Shown: in pieces, positions 11,101 through 44,417 of the stretch | Position numbering within the stretch: position 1 is the stretch's first letter | Layout: every line of letters starts with the position of its first letter | Source: Bdellovibrionales bacterium | GTDB lineage: Bacteria; Bdellovibrionota; Bdellovibrionia; Bdellovibrionales; UBA1609 | Direction: 5' to 3' | Assembly (NCBI GenBank): GCA_019637855.1 | Contig: JAHBUX010000020.1 | Span: forward strand, 1 to 44,417 | DNA length: 44,417 nucleotides | Notes under the pieces: model-generated | What the model saw: only the letters and a program-made list of their open reading frames with translations | What the model was told of the DNA's origin: nothing | The model's database searches: none | Made by a program: the position numbers and the translations under genes

Positions 11101-13828
11101 GGGATCTTCTCAGGTCTCCGCCGGCACGAACTGGGATGGCATGTTTAACAATCCGACGGAGATCACAGGGGATGGCACGTACCTTTACATCAGCGACGCC
11201 TCCAATCATCGCATTGCACGCGTGCAGGAGAGCACCGGCGAATGGAAGGGTTGGTATGGTCGCATCAGTGTGGCCACGAGCATGACATGCGTGGGCGGCG
11301 GCGCGGCGGTGGCCGCGTCAGCGACGCCCAACTGGTGTTATGCGGGCACATCGGCGGCGGCGACAGGCACCAATTGGGATGGCATGTTCAATCTGGGCAC
11401 CAGTGCGACGCTACGCTCATTCTATGATGCACCCACCGCAAGCAATTTGATTTTGGTGATCGATAACGGCAACCATCGCGTCGTCCGCTTACGCGTCAAC
11501 TCGTCCGATGTGATTTGGGAGGGCTGGGCGGGACGTTCCGCTTCCACCGGGTTGACAGACGGAGAGAACTCCTCGGGCTGTTCCGGCGTGGGCATTGGTG
11601 ATGCGACGACCGGTTGGTGTCGGGGCGGAAATTCACAGGCGGCACCTGTGGCGAGCACTCCGACCGTGAGCAATTACGACAATATGTTCAACAACCCGCG
11701 GGGTCTGGCGATTATTCCGGGCACTCCGTCCATGGCTTACTTCGGAGATTTGACCAACGGCCGCTTTGTCGAACTCAACGTCACGACGGGAAAGACGAAT
11801 GCTTGGGCTGGCCGCCCAACCAATCATTTCCCCGGATCAGGCGGCACCAACTGCGGCACTTACAATACGGACACAGGGTGGTGCACGGGCGGTGTTCCCA
11901 TCTACAACGCCTACTGCTATCCGAGTTGCGGCGGTTCGAATACGGCCAATCGTAACACTTACGCCTCCAACCTGATCGCGCTGGATACTGACGGCACGTA
12001 TTTGTACGGCACTTTCTCGGCTACGAACCTTTACGCCATTTATCGGTTTCCACTTTCGTCTCCGTTTGCACCTTCCACCAATATCCGTTGGGTGGGACGG
12101 ATTAACGGCACTCCCACATTGGGAGCAGGTTGTTCGACAACTCCGCTCGGTTTCCCAACGCCTGGATGGTGTGGTGGCGGCACTTCGCGGATTGGCTATG
12201 CGGACGGACAGTTCAGTCAGCCGTGGGCGCTGTCCATAAACAATAACAATGGTTTGATATACACTGTGGACCGCAACAACTCCAAAGTGCAGATGCACGA
12301 TCTCACCACCGGTGAATCCATGGGCTTTATCGCCGCGCAGGCCAACGCTTCGCCCGCCACTTGGTCCACCACGTACGTTCCGGGATTGCAGGGAAATATC
12401 AATGTCCCCGGAGAAGACTTAAGTTTTGCTACGGGTTACAGCGGAGGGACCGCGGTCACAGCCATGTGGGGCATAACCAGCGATGGTACGAATTTGTTTG
12501 TTTCTGACACTGGCAACTACCGTGTTAAGCGTTATATCGCGGCGACAGGACAGTTCAAAGGTTGGTATGGTCGTACGCAAGTCGTACCGACTGGTGAAGA
12601 TGATGCTTGCACTTCGATCACGGGCGGCGCTGTCACTCCGACCTGGTGTTTTGGCGGTTCTTCGCAAAGTCCGAACACCGCCGGTACGGGAGAGTTGAAC
12701 TCGCCGCGCGGCCTTGCGACCGACAACAACTATCTCTACATTATGGATACGACCTATCATCGTATTGTACGCATCGCTCGCAACAGCGGCGGATTTGCCG
12801 GCTGGTTGGGGCGCACTGGCGCGACTCCAGGAGCTATGACCGGTTTTGATGGCCGTGGAGACGTGAACTGTCCAAACGCCGCCGGCAGCGCGTTCACGGG
12901 TGCTTGGTGTGCGGCAGGAAACACCTCGGCTTCTAGCAATGGCAATGGCGAAATGAACAATCCGCGCGGTATTGCGATCGACAAGGACAATGGCTACATC
13001 TTCGTGGCTGACACTAGCGCTCATCGCGTGAGTATGTACGGTACTTCCGGTCAGCACTTAGGATGGCTGGGGCGTCCCAGCACAGTGCCGGGGACGGCAG
13101 GCCCCACAACCGGTATGGCTGACACCACATGCTCCTCGCCGGCTCTGACTACGTCGTTAACGACGACCAACTGGTGTACGGGTGGAGCCTCGCAGTCGGG
13201 CAACTACACGGCGATTGCGTTTGGCGGCTTCAATACACCCTCTGGAGTTTCGTACGCCAATGGTGAGATCTATGTGGCCGACACGTCCAACAATAAGATT
13301 CACAAGTTCACCTCGTTGACTGGAGTTTACAAGGGTTGGATCGGTCGAACGATGGCAACTAAGCCCATTGGTGAAGGACCGGGTTCGACGTTGCCTGCCG
13401 GTGTCTGTACCACGGCACTGACCGCGCAAAATGAAACGCCCGGTTGGTGTATTGGTGGGGCAGCTCAGGTTTCAGGAGCCGGTATCTACGACAATTCCTT
13501 TAGTGGCCCCACTAGCGTTTGGGCCGATCCTAGCGGAACTTATTTTTATGTGGTGGATGCGGGCAATGAACGCGTAACCAGACATGAGAAATTAACTGGG
13601 AAATTCGCTGGCTGGCGTGGCGTGGCGTCTGTGGTGCCCACGGACGGTGACACCGGCTGTACAACGATGGCGGCAGGCGATCCCACCCCTGGTTGGTGTA
13701 AGGGCGGAGTTTCAGCCTCCAGCCGTAAGTTAGGTGGCTTCTATATTCCGGTCGCGATTACGGGCGATGCCAATTTCATCTATGTGACCGACGCGTTCAA
13801 TAACCGTGTCGTCGCTTTGCCCAAGTAG
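2177..13828 (+). CDS. Giant repeat lipoprotein with Cys-containing A/B repeats and NHL-type blades
   Basis: This 3883-residue protein begins with a hydrophobic signal and the lipobox LNAC, so Cys29 is the probable lipid anchor. An in-frame TGA directly precedes the ATG, and GAGAAG 8 bases upstream acts as ribosome binding site, so the start is firm. After an Ig-like segment (about 40-140) come 19 alternating repeats (about 160-2160). Next are FN3-like modules (about 2160-2570), bacterial Ig-like modules (about 2570-2880) and about 12 NHL-type blades (about 2885-3883) that could form two six-bladed propellers. It is likely a surface-exposed rod with a binding head, for example for prey or substrate attachment, but this is inferred from architecture only. 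Its length is far above the usual NHL protein. The 3' end overlaps a convergent gene by 99 bases. Confidence 0.9.
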   Translation: MLNVRALRHYVFATRAIFFAAAFIFLNACTGGSSSQESISSGGLGLKLVKMSGDNQVTTPSASWSQPLVVRVVEGNTGLPSIPVTFADTSATGASVVNTSVLTDSEGYARTSAVAPAASNLSVKITASLADNSSVVFNLETRSFPDTPVITLRDPVTLSTAYAQQTNLDLSITTVPTAVRWCVSESMSSRPNDGSQNCVGGSGPFSGWSTSKPTSFNLSSVNGAKSLYVWVADQYNQVNLFPSSATIFLDTMAPSVPIVTLSDVNSGSITDTSDQAVNFTVSNDGDASYWCIFPQMWNDAMPATPTRNAGCWVNSKPTLLNLVALGLNRVSVWTKDLAGNVSPGAGQQFINYTTLTIADPAFTLKDQNTASQVYSRGVTVDIGITGDSTATKWCVSEQQSSRPTNSLQACTGGAGLLNGWSNSRPTTFTLSGGDGLKTVYVWVANALNNTNGNIVSRTITVDTVAPAIPLADLTDPNTGQPNFTNQSTVNLSITGDTDAVAWCKYEKSSLAAPPSLPAFNDVCWVGARPTTVALGATGARRVYIYTKDSAQNVSPAPAVAMITYTTTAPASPVGVLRDPETNSTTLAKNQTVNLSINSPAGTVRWCVSETQASAPATGTSTCNGGVGASSGWHTSAPTTFALSSGDGAKTVYLWVADGANNVNATTATAAITLDLTPPALPVVTITDPNSGSPDETNQIIATLGITGDTDAVRWCRIVQDVVDPAPATPNLTDVCWAVSRPNTVVLEQPGTRKLYLFTRDAAGNVGTPGAAEIVYSTGVPSDPTIILSDINTSLTTYANQLSVGLNISNDTGAVKWCVSETQSTRPLLGTAACSGGLGSANGWSTAKPTTWTLSASDGVKRVYVWTANTANSVNNNPASGGLTLDRVKPSTPAVALRDPNTNSTSDTNQSTVSLAISGEDADVTAWCVLEQAAATAAPSVPSWNNACWTTSKPVTATLSATGSRKVYVYFRDLAYNVSLSAGQATMAYSTSAPNTPSLAVTDGTTGSTTYARQVAVAVSITGDGGAVKWCVSESQSTQPTLGTSNCVGGAGSANGWHTTRPTSINISSGDAAKTIYLWTANAANNTSSAVVSDAITLDTLPPSVPFVTLSDSLTSSTTVTNQANAGLSIQFDTDAVKWCVIEQSFATAVPAQPLFNNGCWVGTRPTAQTLGATGIRRVFVYTQDVAMNVTPAAAVAQINYTTTPPTDPALTLTNSTTGSTTVTRDLAVTPSITSPTGTIKWCLSETQTTRPTSGSAACNGGAGPSSGWYTSLPNSFTLSGGDAVKSVYIWVADTNNNVNANVATGTITLDTDPPAMPTVVMSDPNNGSTTQTNQFTVDLAITVDTDAVRWCPIMQAAAAAAPSSPALNDSCWRTSRPTQQLVDATGSRKLYVFTRDSAANVGSPGVATIDYSILPPADPSLTVADATTALSDFAKGQSLNIAITADTGAVKWCVSEAQSTRPPLGTATCNGGSGASNGWYTSRPTTFALSSGEALKRVYVWTSDVYNNVNANPTSASITLDTSPPAAPAVSLLDPNTGSSTQTNQSGVNLNIGATADALAWCVIEQASASAAPAAPAFNNGCFHLSKPTTQTLGALGGRTVYVYTRDRAYNVASSAGTAVINYSTTAPSTATLALSDGVTGSTAYVRQSATTIAITGDTGAVRWCVSEAQTTRPTLGTSSCSGGAGPNNGWYTTRPTSFAVSSGEGAKSIYVWTADLANNTSGTAGTDSITLDTVTPAIPTVSLSDPNTNGTAFTNQSTVNLTITQDTDAVAWCVMEQASASAAPTAPLFDNGCWVGSRPTTTTLAAQGNRRVYVYTKDAAANVSLASSIASIAYSTSAPSDPVLVLSNSVTGSRTYTGDRNVAVSINNPVGAVRWCISETQATRPATGTATCTGGAGPSSGWYDSMPSTFQLSTGDATKTVYIWVADNANNTNANASSTSIILLQVPPDPPTVALNDPNTNSSAYTNQSSVNMAITGDTAASAWCALAQDAALAAPAQPASSSTCWVLTRPVSVPLGATGSRKVYVFLRDAAMNISSPGHATIALTTTSPGDPSLALTHAVTGLSNYARTTALSLAITADSTATRWCVSETQSVKPLLGTSTCAGGSGSSSGWHTTRPTSFTLSSGDGLKRVYVWVADASNNTNDNAISQTITLDTQPPGSYTVTGLTGASDITPDAWLGTTVIPTVSWAAASGASSYTVEIKNATGSATVCAAETTAATTYNFSGCNLVDGTSYRVYLSAADEAQNTATASNSPFTFVVKLTPPGAFSISGVTGSQDTTADQWGGSSLPTVSWTASASVNSYIVRILANDGVTVMCPQQVKSAGTLSHEYSTTGCSALTDNTLYQVEVVAQDVAGNIQTASNNLFLFRTDLTAPNVSISGNPAAQAITAAANFTFSGSDNISGIAAMQCKLDSGSFAACDTLTTHAYSVADGSHSFTVRAADKVGLTQTATYSWQVDTVLPNAFTITGATGPTDSVVDGQLQNDTTMTANWTTSSNAADYEVSILNSDDSVACAPVIKAAGSNSHHFSGCTLVNPGSYKIKVVARRGYGTTYAPTPMAISAVKDSVTAVITASSGTVSSGSSVTITLVGYQNSVQMSSNVLNPSFAVGTGTSTGTFGSVSYIGSGTYTVSFTGVLAGTVSQVSATSAYLSGFTGQTPASITVIPGGVSAAVSTITLDKSTVQADNADLVTISVGVKDAAGNPIKGATIGSATSGGLSTGAFSSFTETPANSGTYVGTFLGHTSGTATSLQITADGTLLNAHPTIQVLPGPPVKVSATGPANISTHQCSGPYTVTLRDHWNNLASALSNVRLDFGGLTLGNFSLATDCATSADRADIFLGGSTAPPVYVMPRAPSVSASFTFEDHAHVLATGAVTVTVNGTLAWLGTSGQLNWGPAIGLTTKSSLYGLQEPRGIWINTSTNTMYIADTSNHRIVRYNMTTKAQTGWIGRVDSTNGISCPSTAATGAAAPGWCTGGSSQVSAGTNWDGMFNNPTEITGDGTYLYISDASNHRIARVQESTGEWKGWYGRISVATSMTCVGGGAAVAASATPNWCYAGTSAAATGTNWDGMFNLGTSATLRSFYDAPTASNLILVIDNGNHRVVRLRVNSSDVIWEGWAGRSASTGLTDGENSSGCSGVGIGDATTGWCRGGNSQAAPVASTPTVSNYDNMFNNPRGLAIIPGTPSMAYFGDLTNGRFVELNVTTGKTNAWAGRPTNHFPGSGGTNCGTYNTDTGWCTGGVPIYNAYCYPSCGGSNTANRNTYASNLIALDTDGTYLYGTFSATNLYAIYRFPLSSPFAPSTNIRWVGRINGTPTLGAGCSTTPLGFPTPGWCGGGTSRIGYADGQFSQPWALSINNNNGLIYTVDRNNSKVQMHDLTTGESMGFIAAQANASPATWSTTYVPGLQGNINVPGEDLSFATGYSGGTAVTAMWGITSDGTNLFVSDTGNYRVKRYIAATGQFKGWYGRTQVVPTGEDDACTSITGGAVTPTWCFGGSSQSPNTAGTGELNSPRGLATDNNYLYIMDTTYHRIVRIARNSGGFAGWLGRTGATPGAMTGFDGRGDVNCPNAAGSAFTGAWCAAGNTSASSNGNGEMNNPRGIAIDKDNGYIFVADTSAHRVSMYGTSGQHLGWLGRPSTVPGTAGPTTGMADTTCSSPALTTSLTTTNWCTGGASQSGNYTAIAFGGFNTPSGVSYANGEIYVADTSNNKIHKFTSLTGVYKGWIGRTMATKPIGEGPGSTLPAGVCTTALTAQNETPGWCIGGAAQVSGAGIYDNSFSGPTSVWADPSGTYFYVVDAGNERVTRHEKLTGKFAGWRGVASVVPTDGDTGCTTMAAGDPTPGWCKGGVSASSRKLGGFYIPVAITGDANFIYVTDAFNNRVVALPK
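2650..8655 (+). repeat. Coding array of 10 A and 9 B repeats in strict alternation
   Basis: I count ten A repeats (core WCVSETQ, then C-x-GG, GW, P-T, YVWVAD, NN) and nine B repeats (core AWCVxEQ, a Pro/Ala stretch, a second Cys followed by Trp, TGxRKVYVYTRD). They alternate A-B-A-B and end on A. The A-repeat WCVSE codons recur about every 636 bases, that is 212 residues per A-B pair. Each repeat keeps two cysteines, so 38 in all, which suggests one disulfide per repeat. DNA copies are well diverged in codon use, so the array is old and not a recent slippage product. Confidence 0.9.
10830..13825 (+). other. NHL-type beta-propeller region of the giant lipoprotein
   Basis: About 12 blades follow the pattern NNPRGIAID - YIFVADTSxHRV - GWLGR. 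Between most blades an inserted loop carries two cysteines, the second in a block of the form P-x-WC-x-GG-x-S. The first six and last six blades could each close a propeller. Blades 3 to 6 are more divergent than 8 to 11. The extra Cys loops are not part of the standard NHL repeat. Confidence 0.8.
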
Positions 13829-33956: not shown

Positions 33957-36900
33957 ATGCGTCGTGGGCCAGCCCGTCTTGTTGTTCTAGCGTTATGTCT
34001 AGCCACCCTGAACGTCTACGCTCACGAAGCCAAAAAAGAATCGCCAAAAACCGACGAGTGCAGTCGCTATTTGACCGGCACTCAACCTATGACCCTCAAA
34101 GCCCTGCGCGAGTTGACCTTGCAACGGATCGCGGCTGTTGAAGCCGTCGTGCCTAAGCCCGGTTTCGACAACATCGAAGAGGAAGCCCGTCACGAACAGA
34201 TTGCCGACAGCCAAGTGCCTTTGGCTCTGCGTGAGATTCTCGGTCATGGTGTGGGTTACGTTTCGACACCTGCGCCCACCTCGCCGGATCCGGTGACTAT
34301 CAATCTTACGGTTGAGAACCACTCGGTGCCCTTGCATGTGGACAGCTTGTGGAACGGACGTCGAATCAGCACGGCCGCTTATTTATCCTTGCCTAAAAAT
34401 AAAATTTCTACGGCGGGTAGCTATGCCATCAGCGACGACTACAAAGTGGCGGTGGTGCATTTGCACGGCGGCGGTACTCCCACCGCCACGGGCAAGAACG
34501 CCATGAGCGTTGGCGAGAAGCTTGCTCCTTTGGGTATTCCCACGCTGGCTCTAGATATGCCGGGCCACGGTCGTGCCACGCGCAAGCCGGGCGGACTCGA
34601 GAGCATGGAAGCGCAGGTCGATTGGCTTTTGCAACAGATTGACCAGTTGATTCATCCGAACGTGAAGATCGTTTTATCGGGGCATAGCTGGGGCGGGATG
34701 TTTGCAGCCTATATGCATAGTCATTCCGATGAACCTAAGTACGCCCGTATCGCTCGTTTCATCTCCCTCTCTCCCGGCATCGACGTTTCGAACTCGGGTG
34801 ACAATAAGAAAAAGCAAGAATGGGATCGTTGGTGGGAAGACAATTTTCATAGCTTTGAGAGCAAGATCGCTCCTGCCGATTTTGATTTTCAAGAGAACAT
34901 GCTGGCCAACGGTAAAGATTCGGATGTTGGTGGCTACTTTACGACTTTCACTGATTTTGACTACGTTAGTGCGCCGTTAACCCCAGAGCGTCAGCATCAG
35001 CTGAAGCCGTTGACCCTTGTTGTGGGGAGCGCTGACGGAGTGGTGTACGTCGGACGCGAGAAGCAGTTTGCAGCGGCTTTTGGAAACCTAGAAGAACCGA
35101 ACCAGTTTATTCTTCTTGGCCCGGGTCGCACTTGGAAGTCCAAGGGTCCGGAGGATTTGCAACCGACAGGGCACAATATCTTCGACCGTTACATCGACGG
35201 TACAGAAACTCTGCAAGTGTATGCACTGTTGGCTGATCTCGTGCGTGAGGTTGCGGGTGAGGATTTGACTGCGCCGTCGGCTGTGGCGGATCCTGTATCG
35301 ACGACGTTGGACACATTGTTCCGTCACTACGCAAACTTTTTGGCTGTGCGCGAGATGATTGCGACGCAAGTGGAATTCGTGGATACCAATTCGCCGCAAT
35401 TGGCGGAGCTTTCAGGTCGTAAGGTTGAGCTTGACGAGTACAAACGCCGTTTAGATCAGCAACATGTCGAGAATGGCAAAATCATCGAAGCCAAAGTGAA
35501 CAAGGCCGTGGATCAGCTGCGTGCTGAAATCGGGCTCACGGATCAGGTTCTCTTCAAGCGTGCGCAGGAAGAGCTGGGTTCGGGAGAGATGACGCCTCAG
35601 CGCGAAGCCGAGCTGACGGACTATATCGAACGCATTCAAAATCTCGATAAAGAGATGCGTGGCAGTTTTCATGACCAACAGTACGATCGCGATATCGCGG
35701 GACTGACCAAAGAGTACCAGCCTTTGATGAAGAAACTCGGGTTCGACAAGATTGAGGACTATCGTAAGCACTTCGATCCGGGCAATACGGGTAAGAAGAT
35801 CGATGGTGAGGCCGCTAAGGTGCGGGCTGATTTAAGCCGTTTGCATCAGCGTGTGGCTGACGCCAATCGTGGCCGTCAGGCGCGTTACGGTGTCGAGCGT
35901 GATCGTCGTTTGGCCGAGTTGCCGCGGCCTGAGGGCGTCTTGGATGTGCGTTCGGCTCAACGTGAGTTGAACACGGATCGCTCACCCGAACGTCGAGCGA
36001 TGCTTGAGCAGTTTGTGGCGCGCTATCCGGAGATCGAGCGCAATGCGCGCCTGATTGCCGAACGTGAAGCTGACGAGGCCAAACAGGCTATTTCTCGCCC
36101 GGCGGGCATTGGCCGCTGGGAAGAGGCGGTACGGGCGAAAGAGCAGCAAGATGCCATTATGAGCATGACGTTTGAAACCGATGTTCCGGTGATTTCTCGT
36201 CTGGCCCATCGGATTGGCGAACTGACTGAGGAGCGTGAGCGTTTAGTGCGTGGTTCTCAAGGTCAGCAGAGTTTGGACGCTCTTTCTGCGGACGTCGAGA
36301 AGGTCCGTGCGAAGCGCTCTGGTCTGCTAAAGAAGTGGGAAGGCTTATGGAAGCTGGGGCTAGTTACTAGTGCCGCAGTGTCGCAAGATCAAGCCGCTTA
36401 CGAACAGACATTGGCTTCTTACAAAGCATTGCACGTGGCTTATCAGGTGAAGATGAAGTGGTTGCGCGAGTTGAAGGAGCGCGATCGTTTGAGCGAAGAT
36501 GTGGTCTTGGCCAGTACGCCGGAGTTGAGAGCTTTGCGCGCCAAAGTACAAAAGGCCCGCGCGGTGTTCTTGCAAACGCGCGATCAGTTGGAAGAGACGA
36601 AGTGGATTGAAGCGCTCAACGGCAAGATCGTTCCTGCGGAAGGTGCGAACACGGACCGCGCAGCAAAGGCTGTGGCTGAGGCGACAAAGATCGCCAGCGA
36701 AGTTTGGGGCACGGACTTCCAGTCGACGGGCAAGCCGTCGATGAACAGTTTGACGGCCCAGTTGCGTGCGCAGGACGAGTATTTAGAAGCTCGTCGTCGT
36801 GAAACCAGCTTATTGGAGCGCCAACGCGACGAAATGCGCTATCAGTACGTCCGCGAAATGCGCTCACGCGGCATCGCCGTTCCGTACCTAGTCGAGCGTG

Positions 36901-37064
36901 TACCGCTGTATCCGCTACTGAACCGTCCAATCCGCGAACTGCTTCCGATGTTACGTGAAAATCCAACGCTGCTAAAGGCCCTAAACCAGGCCATAGGCCG
37001 TTGGGACGGCATGCTCGCCGAACTCAAGCGCGGCGTCCAATCCAAAGACTCCAGCGGCTACTAA
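33957..37064 (+). CDS. Large secreted alpha/beta hydrolase with C-terminal coiled-coil region
   Basis: The 1035-residue product has a signal peptide (about 1-22) and an N-terminal hydrolase domain (about 110-450): VVHLHGGGTP (oxyanion, about 166-175), ALDMPGHGRATRKPGG (about 198-213), SGHSWGGMFA with nucleophile Ser244, VVGSADGVVYVG as a possible acid-bearing loop and GHNIFDRY holding a possible triad His. The remaining 550 or so residues are a long Glu/Lys/Arg/Gln-rich region with heptad-like spacing, likely coiled coil. Hydrolases of this size with such a tail are uncommon; the tail may form a fibre or anchor the enzyme in the envelope. AAAGGAG sits 7 bases before the ATG. Substrate unknown. 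Confidence 0.8.
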   Translation: MRRGPARLVVLALCLATLNVYAHEAKKESPKTDECSRYLTGTQPMTLKALRELTLQRIAAVEAVVPKPGFDNIEEEARHEQIADSQVPLALREILGHGVGYVSTPAPTSPDPVTINLTVENHSVPLHVDSLWNGRRISTAAYLSLPKNKISTAGSYAISDDYKVAVVHLHGGGTPTATGKNAMSVGEKLAPLGIPTLALDMPGHGRATRKPGGLESMEAQVDWLLQQIDQLIHPNVKIVLSGHSWGGMFAAYMHSHSDEPKYARIARFISLSPGIDVSNSGDNKKKQEWDRWWEDNFHSFESKIAPADFDFQENMLANGKDSDVGGYFTTFTDFDYVSAPLTPERQHQLKPLTLVVGSADGVVYVGREKQFAAAFGNLEEPNQFILLGPGRTWKSKGPEDLQPTGHNIFDRYIDGTETLQVYALLADLVREVAGEDLTAPSAVADPVSTTLDTLFRHYANFLAVREMIATQVEFVDTNSPQLAELSGRKVELDEYKRRLDQQHVENGKIIEAKVNKAVDQLRAEIGLTDQVLFKRAQEELGSGEMTPQREAELTDYIERIQNLDKEMRGSFHDQQYDRDIAGLTKEYQPLMKKLGFDKIEDYRKHFDPGNTGKKIDGEAAKVRADLSRLHQRVADANRGRQARYGVERDRRLAELPRPEGVLDVRSAQRELNTDRSPERRAMLEQFVARYPEIERNARLIAEREADEAKQAISRPAGIGRWEEAVRAKEQQDAIMSMTFETDVPVISRLAHRIGELTEERERLVRGSQGQQSLDALSADVEKVRAKRSGLLKKWEGLWKLGLVTSAAVSQDQAAYEQTLASYKALHVAYQVKMKWLRELKERDRLSEDVVLASTPELRALRAKVQKARAVFLQTRDQLEETKWIEALNGKIVPAEGANTDRAAKAVAEATKIASEVWGTDFQSTGKPSMNSLTAQLRAQDEYLEARRRETSLLERQRDEMRYQYVREMRSRGIAVPYLVERVPLYPLLNRPIRELLPMLRENPTLLKALNQAIGRWDGMLAELKRGVQSKDSSGY

Positions 37065-37084
37065 CACCCGTCGCGCGACGGGTG
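37065..37084 (+). terminator. Perfect hairpin directly after the hydrolase stop
   Basis: CACCCGTCG-CG-CGACGGGTG begins at the first base after the stop codon. The stem is 9 bases, but no T-run follows, so it is either a Rho-assisted stop or an mRNA-stabilising hairpin. On the minus side it also follows the histidine kinase gene and may act on both. Confidence 0.45.
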
Positions 37085-37107
37085 GCGCCCCTCTCAAGCG
37101 GCCGATA

Positions 37108-38268
37108 CTAAACCTTAGGAAAAACTAAGGAGACTATAGTTCCTCGGCCGATTCTACTTTGAATGGCAAGTGATCCGCCCATTTCCTCAACCGCTGATTT
37201 CGCATGTAAGAGCCCTAGGCCCGAGCCGCTTGAGGAACCTTCTTTGCCAGCACTAATCCTTTCTCGCCCCACCTTGGTAAGTACATCGTTAGGAATGCCT
37301 CGACCGGTGTCGGAAACTATAATTTGAACGTCGTGAGTAGTGGAACGTGTAGCGATCGTCACTGTTCCGGAAGGGCTGAGTGCCTCTACCGCATTATTCA
37401 CTAGATTCGACAGCACTCGTGTGAAATGTGATTTGTTTATTCTACAGAATTGGGTGTCGGCATACACGTCCAATTTCAAAACAAGTCCATCTCGATCCTT
37501 AAATTCATACTTCTTCTCTTGGTATACTTCTTTAACCAGCTCACGAATATCGGCTGTATCTGAAGAGGGTATCCTATTCCTCTTCAGCAAATCATTTGCA
37601 ATGTCATTGATTCTGATGACGGCAGATTGCAAGAGGTCCCACCTCTCGCCTGACATTTCTTTAAGACCATGAAGGGCCATGTTGATTGCTGAAACTGGAG
37701 AGCGAATATCATGTGCAATTTGCAGAGCTAGCCGTTGTTCAAATTCGAGTTGACGCTGCTCGATTATAAGTGCTTGGCGTACCTCGATGCGTTTTTTCAT
37801 ACGCAGAAATAGTCCGACGAATACAACGAGCAGAGCAATAGCGCCACCGAAAGCCATTGCTAGTGGATACTGCGCGGAATAGACAAATGTAAGCGTCGCT
37901 AAAGGTCGAGAAGAAGCCGCGTTTTCATCGCTATTAATCGGAATTTGAATGGGAATCTCTAGAAGCGAAAGGTCTTTTTGCACAGATGAAGTGTTCGGAA
38001 TTCCAACAATTAGCATCTGGTTTGAGTCATAAATCGCAACCACATGAAAGCCGTCGTTGGTCGCCGGGGCTAGAGAGTTCACTGCCTGACGTAAATCACG
38101 AAGCAGTAAGCTGTGGCGCGATGCGCGTGCATAGGATTGAGCTAGTCTTAACCATTGTCGATGGTCGCTATACAGAAAAGTCCCCCCAAGTACCGCCACC
38201 GTAAGTACGTACAGAAGCAAAAGCTGAAGGCCAAGATTTCTCATTTCCAATTTAGGAGGGGCTGTCAC
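37108..38268 (-). CDS. Orphan sensor histidine kinase of the YcaO cluster
   Basis: The 386-residue kinase has TM1 (about 12-33), a periplasmic part of about 100 residues (34-134), TM2 (136-157), a coiled linker, the H-box IAHDIRSPVSA with phospho-acceptor His186, the N-box NLVNNAVEA (Asn291/292), the G1 box SDTGRGIP (319-326) and the G2 box GSGLGL (348-353). The GTG start has a ribosome binding site TGAGGA that overlaps the stop codon of the YcaO gene, so the two are coupled. No response regulator gene is in the window. The periplasmic domain shows no known sensor fold by eye. Its AT-rich base use (22 G/C in 60 in the row at 37501) matches the island, not the flank. Confidence 0.9.
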   Translation of the reverse strand: MTAPPKLEMRNLGLQLLLLYVLTVAVLGGTFLYSDHRQWLRLAQSYARASRHSLLLRDLRQAVNSLAPATNDGFHVVAIYDSNQMLIVGIPNTSSVQKDLSLLEIPIQIPINSDENAASSRPLATLTFVYSAQYPLAMAFGGAIALLVVFVGLFLRMKKRIEVRQALIIEQRQLEFEQRLALQIAHDIRSPVSAINMALHGLKEMSGERWDLLQSAVIRINDIANDLLKRNRIPSSDTADIRELVKEVYQEKKYEFKDRDGLVLKLDVYADTQFCRINKSHFTRVLSNLVNNAVEALSPSGTVTIATRSTTHDVQIIVSDTGRGIPNDVLTKVGRERISAGKEGSSSGSGLGLLHAKSAVEEMGGSLAIQSRIGRGTIVSLVFPKV

Positions 38269-38275
38269 GTGATCC

Positions 38276-39256
38276 TCAATTGAATGGGTGTGGGAGATGA
38301 TTCAAATCATTCCACGTCAGTGGTCGGCCAGCAAAACGTCTGAGCCTTTCTAAGTTTACTACCTTAGCAGTAGTTGGACCCGTCCAAAGATTCTGTGCGT
38401 GATTAGAAAATGCGCGTGCAAAAACAAATGGACAGTTGCTCAAGTTTAATAAGTTTAAATCTATACGTTCGGATGAAAGAGAGTTTTTATCCAAGGGCTG
38501 ACATTGCATTGGTTTTACGGAGGGGAGACCATCAAACAGATGGGTGACAGACTTCCAATATTCAATATGCAACGCCAATCTACCGTGATCTGTAAAATTA
38601 GGTTTTTCTAAGCTTTGGAAAGATTGAATGCTGAGGGCATCATCAGGATTTGCTCTCGAGATAAAGACTGTAGCTTGGCGTGCGGCTTCAACAAAGGAAC
38701 TTTGGGCTGCGAATTCGATATTCTCATTGGCCGATGATCCAATAGTCATGCCGAAAGGAGTTTGTGACTTGTGGCCAGTAATTACGCATACCATGCATAT
38801 GTTGGCGATATTGAAAAAGGTAGTTTCTATCTTCCGCTCGTTTGACCAACTATTTACAGCATCAATCCAAAGCCACTCTTCGGGCGGTAGAAAAGAGTGC
38901 ATTGGCGTTCCAGTCAAATAGTGGCACAAAAAGAGATCTCGTTCGACCACTTCCATTTTCGCATTTTTGTGAGCCGCTTCCTGATGGATGTGTGAGGCGA
39001 ATCCATTGGAAGTCTTTTGACCACTTTGTAAAAAGACGATGCGCTCAAGTCCCTCTGAAAATGCTTTGCAGAGGGCAAGATCCTCACTGTTCTCCCATCC
39101 CCAACTATCAATACGACGTCCATCAACGGTCATTGTGCAGTGAACATCCGAGGCCATTGGAAAAATGTCTCGGATCCAAGATGTCGACTCGATGGTGAGA
39201 GACAGTGTGGCGCTATTGGTTAGAATCCAATTTATTGCGCGGGTCTGATTTTCCAT
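38276..39256 (-). CDS. Divergent YcaO-family protein
   Basis: YcaO proteins use ATP to activate peptide backbone amides and make azolines, thioamides or amidines. The 326-residue product keeps the typical blocks: SEGLERIVF (67-75), TSNGFASHIHQEAA (82-95) leading into MEVVERDLFLCHY (101-113), and QSSFVEAARQ (185-194), which match the ATP-binding ExxER, ExxERD and Q/E-rich helices. It ends in HLPHPFN, close to the Pro-rich C-terminal tail that is catalytic in azoline-forming YcaOs. The start at 39256 overlaps the binding-protein gene by 25 bases; an alternative GTG at 39298 is less likely. The protein is shorter than most cyclodehydratases (about 400 or more) and lacks an E1-like or TfuA partner nearby. 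Confidence 0.72.
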   Translation of the reverse strand: MENQTRAINWILTNSATLSLTIESTSWIRDIFPMASDVHCTMTVDGRRIDSWGWENSEDLALCKAFSEGLERIVFLQSGQKTSNGFASHIHQEAAHKNAKMEVVERDLFLCHYLTGTPMHSFLPPEEWLWIDAVNSWSNERKIETTFFNIANICMVCVITGHKSQTPFGMTIGSSANENIEFAAQSSFVEAARQATVFISRANPDDALSIQSFQSLEKPNFTDHGRLALHIEYWKSVTHLFDGLPSVKPMQCQPLDKNSLSSERIDLNLLNLSNCPFVFARAFSNHAQNLWTGPTTAKVVNLERLRRFAGRPLTWNDLNHLPHPFN

Positions 39257-40809
39257 AGCTCCGTCCCCGCTGAAAATGTCGAAAATGGAAGCCGCCACTT
39301 GTGATTTGCAACAGCATAGTAAGGACTTACAAACGTCGGATATATAACCGCCGATTTGAGCAAATTGTAGTGCAGATCCTGAAGCTTAGAAATTCGTTCA
39401 GCTCGATCTTCCGTTGCCGCATAAGCTTTGATCCAACGATCGCCATCAACATCCGGAAGCTGGAAAATACCAACCTCAAAATTATGTCCTAACAAAGAGA
39501 CACTCTCGGTCCAGGCAGCATCGCTAGACACTACGTAAATATCAGGCCTTTCGTTCATGGGCATTAGATACGCAGAAATAGGCGTCTTTACGGCTGAGAT
39601 CTCGGGGTAATCTTTCAGAAATGTCACAAGAAGGTCATAAGTCGGTCCTGTTGCGCCAATGGTGATTGGTTTCGTGAAAGCTGGTCGTACTTGGCTCGCA
39701 CGAAGCTGTTTTATCTCCATTTTCTGACCATCGTTCAGAGAGCCATCACTTAGCCCTTGGAAAAACTCGATCGTCACGCTCCTGCCAGGTAGCGAGAAAA
39801 AATCTGTGTTCATAAACTTTGCTAAAGTGGCGCCGGCGAAAAATCTCTGCTGAACGGAGAACTCATTTATCGCTCTGGGGGTAAAGCATGCCATTAACAC
39901 TCGAATAGGCATACTTTCGTGAACATTGTAATGTGTTCGTTGGTTTAATATCCTGACCGCACTAGATCCAGAAAAGTAAACGGAGGTTGGTATGATATCG
40001 ACGATACCTTTTTCTAGCATCTCTGCAGTATCCATAGTCGAGACCGGTACAAGTTCAATTGTAGAGGGCATCTCCTGGTTATAAAGATAGTGGTTAGGAT
40101 TCGCTTTCAGCTGCCAAGCACCAGAATCCTTGTCGCTATCTACGTAGTATGGCCCTGAGGTATTTCGGTGATTGAGTAGAGTTGGTTCACGAGGGTTAGG
40201 ATTTAGGGACTCAAGTGGAATAATGCTGAAGTCGGCGCTTTCCAATACTGCCAAAAGATGTGGTCTCATTGATTCATGGATGGGCGTAAGAATCAATCGT
40301 TCACCCTGAACTTCGATTCCGGGGCACTTGTCCTCTAAGGATTTAAGTTGAAATTCCGGGCACAGAAAATTGCGAAGATCGCCATGCCCAGTTCGCCTGA
40401 ACATAATGGCTCTTTTCAGAGAACGGGCGGCGTCCTCGGCTCCCACTACGTTACCGCCGATCGTACGAACCTTTTGTGCGAAATGAAATATCAGCCGTTT
40501 GCCTTCCCAGTTGAAGCTTTGAGGAATTCCTGCCATGAGTTCGCCTTGCGTATTGTACTCGATAAGACGACCATAGAGATTTCGTACAAGTTCGTATTCT
40601 TGCACATTGGCTATATTGACAGGATCTAGGCTTTGCGAACCTTTTAGGTAGTTGGTAGCGACTCGTACCGGATTTGACCTGGCTGAGTTTGAAGTCGTTT
40701 TTGATTCATTTAACATATTAATCCCTATCAAAGCAGAAAAGGCCATCACTCCTATTGTGATGGCCTTCCATTTGAACGCAAGGCGATTTCGCGTAACTGG
40801 AGTCGACAT
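39232..40809 (-). CDS. Membrane-anchored family-5 peptide-binding protein
   Basis: The 525-residue product has a basic start and one hydrophobic segment (about 14-32, WKAITIGVMAFSALIGINML) without a lipobox or clear cleavage site, so it is probably an anchored periplasmic protein. The rest follows the OppA/DppA class: NYLKGSQSLDPVNIANVQEYELVRNLYGRLIEY (read as two segments) near residues 50-80, NTSGPYYVD, PSTIELVPV and a C-terminal WIKAYAATEDRAERISKLQDL. This fold binds peptides. No permease or ATPase gene is in the cluster, so it may act as a receptor that presents peptide to the kinase rather than in uptake. ATG 40809 is preferred over GTG 40842, which overlaps the precursor gene. Confidence 0.82.
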   Translation of the reverse strand: MSTPVTRNRLAFKWKAITIGVMAFSALIGINMLNESKTTSNSARSNPVRVATNYLKGSQSLDPVNIANVQEYELVRNLYGRLIEYNTQGELMAGIPQSFNWEGKRLIFHFAQKVRTIGGNVVGAEDAARSLKRAIMFRRTGHGDLRNFLCPEFQLKSLEDKCPGIEVQGERLILTPIHESMRPHLLAVLESADFSIIPLESLNPNPREPTLLNHRNTSGPYYVDSDKDSGAWQLKANPNHYLYNQEMPSTIELVPVSTMDTAEMLEKGIVDIIPTSVYFSGSSAVRILNQRTHYNVHESMPIRVLMACFTPRAINEFSVQQRFFAGATLAKFMNTDFFSLPGRSVTIEFFQGLSDGSLNDGQKMEIKQLRASQVRPAFTKPITIGATGPTYDLLVTFLKDYPEISAVKTPISAYLMPMNERPDIYVVSSDAAWTESVSLLGHNFEVGIFQLPDVDGDRWIKAYAATEDRAERISKLQDLHYNLLKSAVIYPTFVSPYYAVANHKWRLPFSTFSAGTELWKIRPAQ

Positions 40810-40826
40810 ATCTTTTCCGTTAAATA

Positions 40827-41096
40827 CTAGTTCGCAAAGCACCCGTTGCCGACTGAAGATCCACAGCCAGCGGCAAAGTCGGTAGGAGTTATTGGGGTCT
40901 TGATCAGCTCATAGTCGCTGAGGATGGAAGTGATCGAACTGGTGACAGTCAAACTTCCGCTATTCAAATCAAATGAAACGTGGCCGCGGGAAATCAGATC
41001 ACGAAGCAAACCATCATTTGAAACGTTCGCCGTTCCTGCCACTATGCCGGATAAAACTGCACCTAAAACGGCCATCGAGACTTCAATTTTCTTCAT
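40827..41096 (-). CDS. Candidate RiPP precursor peptide with two-Cys C-terminus
   Basis: The 89-residue product begins MKKIEVSMAVLGAVLSGIVA, a possible signal peptide, followed by a Ser/Leu/Asp-rich middle with no strong motif and a Gly/Ser/Cys tail: AAGCGSSVGNGC with Cys78 and Cys86. Lys66 is the last basic residue, so a trypsin-like cut there would release a 23-residue C-terminal fragment (67-89). AAGGGG sits 7 bases before the ATG, and a hairpin CCGAG-TAAAA-CTCGG (41112-41126) is just upstream. It is first in the operon with the binding protein, YcaO and kinase. Short leader plus Cys/Gly/Ser core next to YcaO is the usual picture of a precursor, but I recognise no known leader family (Nif11, NHLP). 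Confidence 0.68.
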   Translation of the reverse strand: MKKIEVSMAVLGAVLSGIVAGTANVSNDGLLRDLISRGHVSFDLNSGSLTVTSSITSILSDYELIKTPITPTDFAAGCGSSVGNGCFAN

Positions 41097-41129
41097 TTTT
41101 AAACCCCTTATCCGAGTAAAACTCGGTGA

Positions 41130-41159
41130 TATTTATCCCAGCTTTCTCGCCATATGCAA
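41130..41159 (-). promoter_or_regulatory. Candidate promoter of the peptide-YcaO operon
   Basis: On the minus strand TTGCAT (41154-41159) and TAAATA (41130-41135) are 18 bases apart, with a start near 41123 and a leader of about 27 bases. A better -35, TTGACT (41168-41173), lacks a -10 at the right spacing and may belong to an activator site. Confidence 0.4.
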
Positions 41160-41192
41160 ATGGCCTTAGTCAATGCTTCCCACAATACATTT

Positions 41193-41241
41193 CCGACGTC
41201 CGGATATCGGACATCGGTCGTCTAGAATGCAACTTCTAGAC
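41193..41241. promoter_or_regulatory. Two adjacent operator-like palindromes
   Basis: CCGACGTCCG-GATAT-CGGACATCGG (41193-41217) has 10-base arms with one mismatch, and GTCTAGAA-TGCAAC-TTCTAGAC (41220-41241) has perfect 8-base arms. Neither is followed by a T-run on either strand, so they are more likely protein-binding sites than terminators. They lie just upstream of the candidate promoter of the peptide operon. Confidence 0.6.
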
Positions 41242-41431
41242 AACTTCGTTCTGGAGACGGTCGGGTATCTAATGTGAGAAGGCGGCGAAAGTGCGAGTCA
41301 GAGCTGTCGAAGACCACGACATTATCATTTGGTTTCTGTAATTGTTATAAATATAATAAATACGATAAAGTATTAGATATTCAAGGAATGTTTCAAGTAG
41401 ACGTTGAGTTAAAGCTCATTGTTTATTTGCT

Positions 41432-42346
41432 TTAGATAGCTTGGCGCTCTTTCAAGCGCTCATAGGATTCGAACAGGCTTTCATCGAAAGTAGTGACAAC
41501 CGTTGAAAGTTTATGTGCATCGAACGAACCCTTTTCCGATTTTCTAACAATATGTCCTGAAACAATGCCGAAGAGCTTCGGTTGTCCTTGCACTTCAATA
41601 TAGGCTTGAGCTCCTGAAGACCCATCGCCAGTATCGCAATCCGTCCCGACTTTGGTTGATGGTTGGCCAGAGGACAAATTGTATACGCCATATCTTTTGC
41701 AAGTCGTCATAGTCAGCGAGTTGCGGTTTTTGGTATTCGTCGCATAGTTTGAAATGACTTTGATTGGCTGGGAAAAATCCTCATTGGTATCAATCGTCAT
41801 CATGTCTTTAGTGACGGCGGCTGCATTTTTCGGTTTGAATTTAAGTCGTGCAATTGCGACGTCGCGATGACCTGAGTCATGTGGATCTTTGCCTGCCAGC
41901 ATTTTTGGGTATTCAACGTCGATCATGGGTACCATTTGGCCACTCGCAATATGCTCGAAGAAGCAATTTTCAATTTTTGCAAATCTGCTGCCGTCATCTT
42001 TTAGAAACATGTGACGATTCACTATGACCATATCGCCCTCGAATGCAATTGTGGCATTGGCGATAAATGGGCGCTCCTTGAGAATATCTTCTTTCGATGG
42101 AATGTCGCCCGCTTTGGAGCTCAACGGTTTATTAAGACAGTATGCTCGCCCTTGCGCATTTTCGATGTTGTTGGCAACCATTCCTGGTTCTCGAGTTTGG
42201 CGATCATCGTCCCCTATAATCGCTATTTGATGGACAAGATCTTGTGAAGCTTCGAACTGACTAATCTTTTGGTTGCACAAAATCGGCAATGCACTGGTCG
42301 AGATCGCTAAATACCAGAATGAGTAAATAGCTGTTAATGTTGACAT
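41432..42346 (-). CDS. Secreted trypsin-fold serine protease, copy 1
   Basis: The 304-residue product has a signal peptide (about 1-19). The catalytic triad can be read as His112 in VNRHMF, Asp162 in HRDVAIARL and Ser244 in GDGSSGAQAY, in the order and spacing of the S1 family. Asp238, six residues before Ser, may correspond to the trypsin pocket Asp and would favour cutting after Lys or Arg; this is inferred by position only. AGGTAGGA precedes the ATG. It is 45 bases downstream of copy 2, shares the C-terminal RQAI end and much of the fold, and was probably made by tandem duplication. It may mature the nearby secreted peptide. AT-rich like the rest of the island. Confidence 0.85.
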   Translation of the reverse strand: MSTLTAIYSFWYLAISTSALPILCNQKISQFEASQDLVHQIAIIGDDDRQTREPGMVANNIENAQGRAYCLNKPLSSKAGDIPSKEDILKERPFIANATIAFEGDMVIVNRHMFLKDDGSRFAKIENCFFEHIASGQMVPMIDVEYPKMLAGKDPHDSGHRDVAIARLKFKPKNAAAVTKDMMTIDTNEDFSQPIKVISNYATNTKNRNSLTMTTCKRYGVYNLSSGQPSTKVGTDCDTGDGSSGAQAYIEVQGQPKLFGIVSGHIVRKSEKGSFDAHKLSTVVTTFDESLFESYERLKERQAI

Positions 42347-42391
42347 GTCCTACCTCGACAACGACCAAACTATCATCTTTGGCTGCCTCTG

Positions 42392-43288
42392 CTAGATCGC
42401 TTGGCGCTGTTTGAGTTGCTGATAAGCTTGAAACAGACGAGAATCAAATCGAGTAAGATAAGTTGAAAGCTTTCTCGGGTCCATTTCTCCCCCCTCGGGA
42501 GCCTTCGTTATTTCGCCAGATATAATACCAAACCATTTCGGCTTTCCATTAATCTCAAGATAAGCCTGAGCCCCGGAGCTGCCAAGTCCGGTATCACAAT
42601 CCGTTGCGTTTACGTTGGAAAGGCTATTGTCGGGAAATTGATATCGACCACCGCGGTAACAGGAGGTCATAGTGAGAGCCTCTTTGCCGCCTTTACTGTT
42701 TCTGGCGTAGTTAGAGATAACCTTTACTCTGGCATCGCGATCATCCTCTAAATCTTCAATAATATCTTCCTCGGGTATAGCTTTGCCTCTTTTGGGGCTA
42801 GATTTGAGGCGAACAACGGCGAAGTCACTGTCTAGCCAATCCAGAAAATCGCCGGCTTTAAACTTGGGATAAGCAGCATCCACAAACGGAATTATCTCAC
42901 CGCTCTGTACATGCTCGAAATAGCAGTTGGCCGCCCCATAGTTTTTTGATCCATCTTGATTTTTGAAGACATGTCGGCTGACGATGGCAATATCATTCTC
43001 GAAAGATAGAGTCGCGTTCGCAGCGCTCCCATTTTTTACTAAATATTCCTTTGTAGGCACGCCGCTTTTGTACGGTACTTTCAAGCAATATGCCCTTCCT
43101 TGTGCGGCTTCTATGTTAGCAGCTACAGAACTTGCACTCCGAGCTTCCCGATCGTCCGGGCCGATAATGGCTACTTCGTGGTAGAGGTTTTCAACATTTT
43201 TAAATTGGGAATTTGGGAGACAGGGGGGGAGGGCAACGGCTGCCACTGAAGCTAACAAGCATAGGTTCGCGAATAAAAATAAGCGCAT
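42392..43288 (-). CDS. Secreted trypsin-fold serine protease, copy 2
   Basis: The 298-residue product has a signal peptide (about 1-19), His106 in VSRHVF, Asp155 in DSDFAVVRL and Ser238 in GLGSSGAQAY; Asp232 lies six residues before Ser as in copy 1. Blocks NIEAAQGRAYCL, TDCDTG and SSGAQAY are almost the same in the two copies, while loops between them differ, so the duplication is not recent. It is the first gene of the pair and is divergent from the partial secreted-protein gene at 43403. Upstream lies GGCCTAGTCAAT (43307-43318), which resembles a site before the peptide operon. Function in peptide processing, defence or predation is open. Confidence 0.85.
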   Translation of the reverse strand: MRLFLFANLCLLASVAAVALPPCLPNSQFKNVENLYHEVAIIGPDDREARSASSVAANIEAAQGRAYCLKVPYKSGVPTKEYLVKNGSAANATLSFENDIAIVSRHVFKNQDGSKNYGAANCYFEHVQSGEIIPFVDAAYPKFKAGDFLDWLDSDFAVVRLKSSPKRGKAIPEEDIIEDLEDDRDARVKVISNYARNSKGGKEALTMTSCYRGGRYQFPDNSLSNVNATDCDTGLGSSGAQAYLEINGKPKWFGIISGEITKAPEGGEMDPRKLSTYLTRFDSRLFQAYQQLKQRQAI

Positions 43289-43402
43289 AATGCCTTTTAG
43301 ACCTTGGGCCTAGTCAATTGCCTCGAAATGAGACAAACAGTCGTTATTCTAATAGATCTATCTATGGGATGCTATTCTGAATCTTCTACGAGGTAAATTT
43401 CG

Positions 43403-44417
43403 GTGATTTCAGGGTCTTGGTCCCCGCAAAAAGCCCTGCTAGGGCTAATATTTTTTTCCATAAATTTTGTATGGGCTGAGCCAAATGGTTCAGTTGGTTG
43501 TCATACGCGAAGCACAAAAGAGGAGTGTTACTCCTGTTACACAGAGTCTAACAATTCTATTTTCGCGAAATGTTACAATGCAGCCGGAATTTCTAGAGGG
43601 ACTACGTCTGATGCTCCGATAGAAGGGGCCAGTGCGATCGAGATATGTAAAGTTACAAATGGATATCGCGAAGAACATATTGTTGATCGGCTATGTATGA
43701 GCATTAACAAGCCGGCGTCGGGTGGAATTGGCGGAATAGATGGTGGCCATGGAACTATGGATTCCAACCCCCTCGGAACCACCGTGACTTCTAAGTCAAA
43801 ACCGAAGTCTGCTTCGGCTACCGGTGGTAGCGCATTTAAATCCACCGACAAAACCAAGCCCGCCACGGGCACATCCACCGCCCCACAAGAGCCGGCTGCC
43901 GCACAAAGCGATGCTTCTGCCGACACCTCTCAATGTGAGCAGGCCACACGTACCGCGGTCTCTTGCTGTGACAACCCTGAGAGTTGTTTGACCGACTCTG
44001 AGCGCTCGCAGGTTCAGTCGGCTTCGGCTCAAGCCTATTCCACCACCCAGTCGGGCCAGGGGATCAATAGCCTCAATCAATCTTCGACGACGTTGAACAG
44101 CGCGGGCTCAAATGTAAACACGATTTACGCGACTGCGTGCTTTCGTAGCAAAGCGCTTTGTAACGACACCTGTAACAACGTGGGCAACAAGTACACTCAG
44201 CTCAGCAACAACTGCAGCGGCTGCTCCTCAAGCTCTGTCTACCAACAGGCCATCTCACGGGTGAACAGTGCGAAAAACACCTGTTCGCGCCTTTCCGCCA
44301 GCACCTACAGTGCGCAGAGTTTGAATAATGCCGCAAACCAAGGGCTCTCTGGACTAGGCGATCAGTTGTCCCAAGCACAGCCTTCGAATTCGGCGGCCGG
44401 CATGAACACTCAAGATC
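43403..44417 (+). CDS. Secreted Cys-containing protein, cut by the window end
   Basis: An open frame runs from GTG 43403 (ribosome site GAGGT 8 bases upstream, in-frame TAA at 43394) to the last base, 338 codons without a stop. The product has a signal peptide (about 1-25, ALLGLIFFSINFVWA). Then come a Cys-containing part (CHTRSTKEECYSC, AKCYNAAG, EICKV; about 30-100), a Gly- and Lys/Ser/Thr/Pro-rich linker (about 105-175) and a second Cys-containing part rich in Ser, Asn and Gln (CCDNPESC, CNDTCNN, NNCSGCSSSS). I recognise no family. The row at 43501 has 24 G/C in 60, while the row at 43801 has 32, so the composition changes within the gene, near the linker. It is divergent from the protease pair; disulfide-rich surface protein is an inference. 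Confidence 0.75.
   Translation, partial: MISGSWSPQKALLGLIFFSINFVWAEPNGSVGCHTRSTKEECYSCYTESNNSIFAKCYNAAGISRGTTSDAPIEGASAIEICKVTNGYREEHIVDRLCMSINKPASGGIGGIDGGHGTMDSNPLGTTVTSKSKPKSASATGGSAFKSTDKTKPATGTSTAPQEPAAAQSDASADTSQCEQATRTAVSCCDNPESCLTDSERSQVQSASAQAYSTTQSGQGINSLNQSSTTLNSAGSNVNTIYATACFRSKALCNDTCNNVGNKYTQLSNNCSGCSSSSVYQQAISRVNSAKNTCSRLSASTYSAQSLNNAANQGLSGLGDQLSQAQPSNSAAGMNTQD

Follow-up and report, generated by a model that had tools for sequence, protein, structure and literature searches.

Agr and ComQXPA are autoinducing-peptide systems of Gram-positive bacteria, and peptide pheromones that control conjugation are likewise known from Gram-positive bacteria. In LuxP-LuxQ and ChvE-VirA, a periplasmic binding protein is the co-receptor of a kinase. 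In Enterococcus pCF10 pheromone control the target of the peptide is PrgX, a regulator in the cytoplasm (PMC5552905). Here we analysed a window, the whole stretch of 44,417 nucleotides from a Bdellovibrionales genome, in which a small gene stands beside genes for a family-5 (OppA-type) peptide-binding protein (SBP), a YcaO enzyme and a histidine kinase (HK). We think it probable that this gene encodes a secreted, RiPP-type precursor from which a modified ligand for the SBP-HK receptor is made, the signal being read in the periplasm.

Like Agr and ComQXPA, such cassettes unite a small precursor, a peptide-modifying enzyme, an HK and a response regulator, but where those systems use AgrB or ComQ they encode YcaO, an OppA-type SBP stands in between, the host is Gram-negative, and the regulator, where present, is a sigma-54 activator. 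A secreted peptide, a family-5 SBP (PrgZ) and a link to conjugative elements are shared with pCF10; the membrane HK, the lack of a permease in the operon and the presence of a RiPP enzyme are not. The periplasmic binding protein and the kinase with two transmembrane (TM) segments recall LuxP-LuxQ and ChvE-VirA, although here the SBP is of the family-5 peptide type and anchored, and a precursor and YcaO share its operon. Microcin B17 (McbBCD) and cyanobactins (LynD) have the same YcaO fold and a Cys/Ser/Thr/Gly tail on a short precursor, whereas here the precursor bears a signal peptide, the partners are a kinase and an SBP, and no E1-like partner or dedicated exporter was found. Our searches of an open-access library gave no description of a precursor-SBP-YcaO-HK unit.

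The precursor gene is genuine and opens a tight operon, in which precursor, SBP, YcaO and HK follow on one strand, neighbours overlapping or lying at most 17 bases apart (Table 1); neither an export ABC transporter nor a permease for the SBP was seen in the window operon. It starts with ATG, 3' of an AAGGGG stretch resembling a ribosome site. The original prediction, of an 89-residue frame with Lys66 as the last basic residue followed by a Gly/Ser/Cys tail, agrees with the sequence, in which residues 67-89 read TPITPTDFAAGCGSSVGNGCFAN and include Cys78 and Cys86. Homologues occur at the equivalent position in a same-genus genome (E 3e-5, 36% identity) and at locus L047 (E 1.4e-8), which, together with the enrichment of such frames described below, rules out a chance ORF. 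Within the genus, the homologue was found in one of three other genomes, followed by SBP, YcaO and HK; the two others do not have the precursor gene, which counts against our main reading. Upstream lie an inverted repeat at 41217-41244 (11-nt arms, 91% complementary, 6 nt apart), a possible operator, and, immediately before the gene, a short CCGAG/CTCGG stem at 41112-41126. An Rfam search of 36500..44417 gave no match.

Table 1. Features of the window and the evidence for each.
Feature	Position	Strand	Evidence or remark
Precursor peptide gene, 89 aa	40827..41096	(-)	ORF; homologues at equivalent position of other loci
Signal-peptide-like N-terminus, about residues 1-23	41028..41096	(-)	K2 K3, then hydrophobic stretch, then GTA 21-23; tentative cleavage site
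Middle segment, putative leader, about residues 27-64	40905..41018	(-)	LIxxG...SIxxIL pattern common to near homologues
Gly/Ser/Cys tail, putative core, residues 67-89 (Cys78, Cys86)	40830..40898	(-)	Tail Cys conserved; predicted disordered
Membrane-anchored family-5 (OppA-type) peptide-binding protein (SBP)	39232..40809	(-)	Profile and N-terminal hydrophobic anchor; open frame begins GTG 40842
Stand-alone YcaO enzyme	38276..39256	(-)	PF02624; likely ATG start; open frame begins GTG 39298
Histidine kinase (HK)	37108..38268	(-)	TM 14-32, periplasmic loop, TM 136-154, HisKA, HATPase_c
Two tandem trypsin-like secreted proteases	41432-42346, 42392-43288	(-)	48% identical to each other

The enzyme belongs to the YcaO superfamily, scoring 34.8 bits against PF02624 (cut-off 25.7). 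A model from six sequences (pLDDT 84.2, pTM 0.85) matches LynD (Z 22.8), MusD (22.1), McbD (20.0) and a Methanopyrus YcaO (19.4) over nearly its full length; 14 YcaO entries fall at Z 15.9-22.8, and the next, unrelated rows at 7.5. Eight columns are invariant in an 18-row alignment, including E82, R86, E116, E119, R120 and E204, and E85 is kept in at least 90% of rows, so that the conserved acidic/Arg ATP-Mg site of the superfamily is present; some further positions, which we read as ligand positions, vary. Most rows end in a PHP-type motif. This is the one YcaO in the genome by PF02624, the subfamily profile adding a 50-residue partial match on contig C1. An E1-like (ocin-ThiF type) partner was not seen in the operon, and neither TIGR03882 (E1-like) nor PF07812 (TfuA) had a match in the genome at E 0.001. 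A classical azoline or thioamide cluster, in which these two partners are expected, can be set aside, and the lack of both also counts against our main reading.

On the receptor side, the SBP family profile (A2) matches OppA3 best (E 1.1e-24) and 71 other distinct sequences, among them AapF, OppA and PrgZ chains (PrgZ 4faj, E 1.9e-8). The window SBP by itself scores 16.7 against PF00496, below the cut-off of 32.4, and those of L098 and L064 score above it; membership in SBP_bac_5 follows from the family profile and its match to solved relatives. Across the 53 complete cassettes described below, simple hydropathy finds an N-terminal hydrophobic anchor in 44 SBPs, two TM segments around a loop of 78-130 residues in 51 HKs, and no TM segment in 52 YcaO proteins; a lipobox-like motif occurs in six SBPs. 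YcaO and the SBP-HK receptor are thus predicted to lie on opposite sides of the membrane. A search for related loci with SBP alignment A4 returned eight, five with the same kind of SBP and three with Rhodobacteraceae SBPs, near which there were no YcaO or HK matches.

The cassette is widespread in the phylum. Used as a query, the YcaO protein has matches in 37 of 140 genomes of the order, and the 18-row profile in at least 118 of 368 genomes of the phylum. We fetched 61 loci, mostly the strongest YcaO matches and not a random sample, and in 53 of the 62 loci, the window included, SBP, YcaO and HK occur together on one strand. Three loci without the full cassette have a contig end near YcaO (L107, L119, L131), and six have neither SBP nor HK (L063, L110, L111, L113, L114, L115). 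At two of the latter, L113 (about 5563-5976) and L115 (about 5500-5853, both in strand coordinates), there is a different type of precursor that has no signal peptide and ends FTTLTATN.SSYCD. Gene order is either SBP-YcaO-HK or YcaO-SBP-HK, and in the second the precursor gene usually separates YcaO from SBP. At L061 a CRISPR-like array (9719-11496; 27 repeats of about 36 nt, spacing about 66 nt) lies immediately upstream of the cassette.

Small secreted frames recur at the same place. Under a rule requiring a basic N-terminus, a hydrophobic stretch and small residues at a possible cleavage site, a small ORF abuts the start of SBP or YcaO in 47 of 53 cassettes compared with 57 of 271 other genes from these loci, usually overlapping the SBP gene or sitting within a few bases of it. 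Three loci (L054, L059, L060), where a small ORF with a tail Cys is visible by eye but failed the rule, were scored as misses; at L116 the frame picked automatically is no precursor but the end of YcaO itself, and at L127 the picked frame sits before YcaO. A Cys in the last 16 residues marks the small ORF in 36/53 cassettes versus 12/271 controls (Fisher P ~1e-24) and, among ORFs that pass the signal rule, in 36/47 versus 12/57 (P ~1e-8), both P values being too small because related loci are not independent. This enrichment, with YcaO encoded two genes downstream, agrees with the suggestion that the window peptide is a YcaO-linked precursor with a Gly/Ser/Thr/Cys tail.

The adjacent precursors have a Cys/Ser/Thr-rich core, as in LAP/TOMM peptides, most with a single Cys near the C-terminus. 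The two-Cys pattern is not general, and was seen in the window and at L016, L056, L098, L106 and L132. Among 37 precursors, the last tail Cys is often preceded by G or S at -3, T or S at -2 and I or V at -1; beyond this, tails vary strongly between loci. Alignment A3 pairs the conserved Cys with Cys78 of the window and alignment A7 with Cys86, and the invariant Cys of A3 is partly a matter of choice because, of the 18 first loci, A3 omits L057, which has no tail Cys, and L048, whose precursor is broken by an in-frame stop; the count over cassettes includes both. Several precursor picks have no tail Cys (including L057, L066, L109, L126, L127 and L130), which counts against our main reading, and at L117 and L134 the Cys lies further in from the C-terminus. 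Two further arrangements were observed: the L048 precursor frame, upstream of an SBP gene starting at 9429, has its in-frame TGA before the tail, and L047 (8917-9692) has two precursor genes in tandem ahead of one SBP gene.

Signal-like N-termini, many with an AxA-type site, recur across the family; thus, we read the N-terminus as a secretion signal, one of the two options that the original prediction had left. Homologues that formed one folded domain throughout, or that had no cysteines, would have contradicted that prediction. Instead, a tail Cys is enriched and the tail is predicted to be disordered (residues 75-89, pLDDT <50), in a model of mean pLDDT 57.6 whose helix-hairpin-helix at about residues 27-61 is of low confidence (pLDDT about 72-76). 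Release of the tail by trypsin-like cutting at Lys66 did not hold up, as neither Lys66, the TPITP hinge nor the nearby proteases are conserved, and homologues of the two proteases were absent among ORFs of the other 61 loci at E 1e-3. Thus, we reject cleavage at Lys66 as a general step, and the predicted 23-residue product is speculative.

The best clue that the modifying enzyme acts on the small ORF, and that the SBP-HK pair reads it, comes from a sister cassette in the same genome (L148, 2502-7913, contig C1), since there a different modifying enzyme sits in the same layout. Beside the conjugation gene traC, it encodes a sigma-54 regulator (2502-3929), a 94-aa secreted small ORF without a tail Cys, an aKG-HExxH-type peptide beta-hydroxylase where YcaO would be (TIGR04267, 54.2 bits, cut-off 40), an SBP and an HK, followed by a pilin-like protein and TraC. 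The same plan is repeated in another genome (L175). By the same reading, YcaO would act on the window peptide. It is unlikely that the small protein instead regulates the SBP-HK complex as one of its periplasmic subunits, with YcaO having some other target. The conserved middle segment of the precursor, the loci without a tail Cys and the SBP-HK loci beside TraC without a visible RiPP enzyme (L173, L174) would fit a subunit; yet the precursors of L128 and L133 are only 48-49 aa long and consist of a signal and a Gly/Ser/Cys tail, tail Cys is enriched, and the sister locus replaces YcaO with a peptide beta-hydroxylase family member rather than an unrelated gene.

Under the ligand reading, the cytoplasmic step would be modification of the C-terminal Cys/Ser/Thr tail by YcaO, an azoline or another backbone-amide change being the likeliest outcome. 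The signal peptide would then take the modified precursor through Sec, and trimming would follow in the periplasm. Because precursors bear signal peptides, modification would be confined to the time before export. The original prediction had found a signal on a YcaO substrate puzzling; as the membrane is predicted to separate enzyme from receptor, and the precursor has a signal for crossing it, the puzzle is resolved if modification comes first. The OppA-type protein, anchored in the inner membrane, would then bind the tail peptide and relay the signal to the HK encoded next to it, by way of the kinase's periplasmic loop. The HK would drive a response regulator, which in many relatives may be the sigma-54 activator encoded alongside; this activator probably also turns on the operon itself. 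For cassettes inside conjugative elements, the output would probably be transfer of the element, or the time at which it occurs.

Microcin B17 is one of the antibiotics made by YcaO enzymes, and RiPP clusters commonly have a two-component system next to them. An antimicrobial, bacteriocin-like RiPP made under its own two-component system, as lantibiotics are, with the SBP serving immunity or sensing, would accord with both, and the periplasmic SBP YejA participates in uptake of the azole peptide phazolicin (PMC10128002). We nevertheless consider this improbable, as the operon showed no exporter for passage across the outer membrane, a Sec-type signal reaches only the periplasm, and tails differ strongly from locus to locus, yet SBP and HK, and in many cases the regulator, persist. 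Finally, OppA-type SBPs bind diverse peptides, but a sensor of peptide nutrients or prey signals to which the small ORF is incidental is very improbable given how regularly that ORF accompanies the cassette, as counted above.

Of the three parts of a peptide quorum-sensing two-component system (secreted precursor, sensor kinase and regulator), the window has the first two, and a regulator adjoins 29 of the 53 cassettes, 28 times as the immediate neighbour on the same strand and at L047 on the opposite strand; a Pfam scan of three found receiver and sigma-54 activator domains. Between -200 and +80 of the operon start, sigma-54-like sites that match at least 11 of 12 letters and retain GG and GC occur at 10 of 51 operons versus 2 of 197 control genes, and at 10/12 letters at 19 versus 12; the sites at L101-L105, loci related to one another, are perfect. 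Sigma-54 is encoded in the window's own genome, and the window locus has no adjacent regulator and no such site, which counts against our main reading.

Elsewhere in the phylum, the cassette is often beside conjugative type IV secretion genes. Among the matches listed, 31 of 82 YcaO matches lie <20 kb from TraC, against 2.2 expected under uniform placement, in 52 genomes selected among those that have a YcaO match, and with contig breaks ignored; TraC (PF11130) is present in 32 of these 52. Neighbours at scanned loci include TrbC/VirB2 pilin, CagX/VirB9-like, TrbI/VirB10, coupling and replication-relaxation proteins and integrases, each in one or two loci. Of 20 more TraC loci, near which no YcaO match was listed, SBP, HK and regulator occur in four (L173, L174, L175, L176), with a weak YcaO match at L176 and the HExxH enzyme at L175; the other 16, several of them short contigs or of another TraC type, had no SBP, HK or regulator. 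The regulator-SBP-HK set by TraC at L173 (848-2029) has a transporter-like protein with many TM segments, and in the window's own genome a group II intron reverse transcriptase adjoins a TraC gene (L146, 17001-18329, contig C7). Sigma-54 sites (at least 11/12 letters) are absent from transfer genes in most TraC-linked loci; at L128 (the same place as L157), one sigma-54-like site faces transfer-side genes and one lies at the YcaO gene. Two observations count against our main reading, as the window contig, which ends 3.3 kb upstream of the precursor, has no TraC match, and neither does the same-genus genome G001, where the cassette is present. For the family, control of conjugation is a plausible if tentative reading; for this window it is unproven.

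The original prediction, centred on the peptide, missed the larger frame of SBP, kinase, sigma-54 regulator and link to conjugation genes. We suggest, with rather less confidence than for the ligand itself, that these cassettes may be phylum-wide mating or element-control signals of Gram-negative bacteria, in which Sec-exported RiPPs made by exchangeable enzymes (YcaO or aKG-HExxH hydroxylase) would be sensed by OppA-type proteins and HKs and relayed through sigma-54, often on Bdellovibrionota conjugative elements whose transfer they would time. They offer, at dozens of loci, a candidate modified-peptide signal with SBP and kinase in Gram-negative relatives of predatory bacteria, with a sigma-54 output readable at many loci and links to transfer genes. 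They also suggest an unusual role for YcaO and HExxH enzymes, which may make periplasmic ligands on precursors that bear signal peptides.
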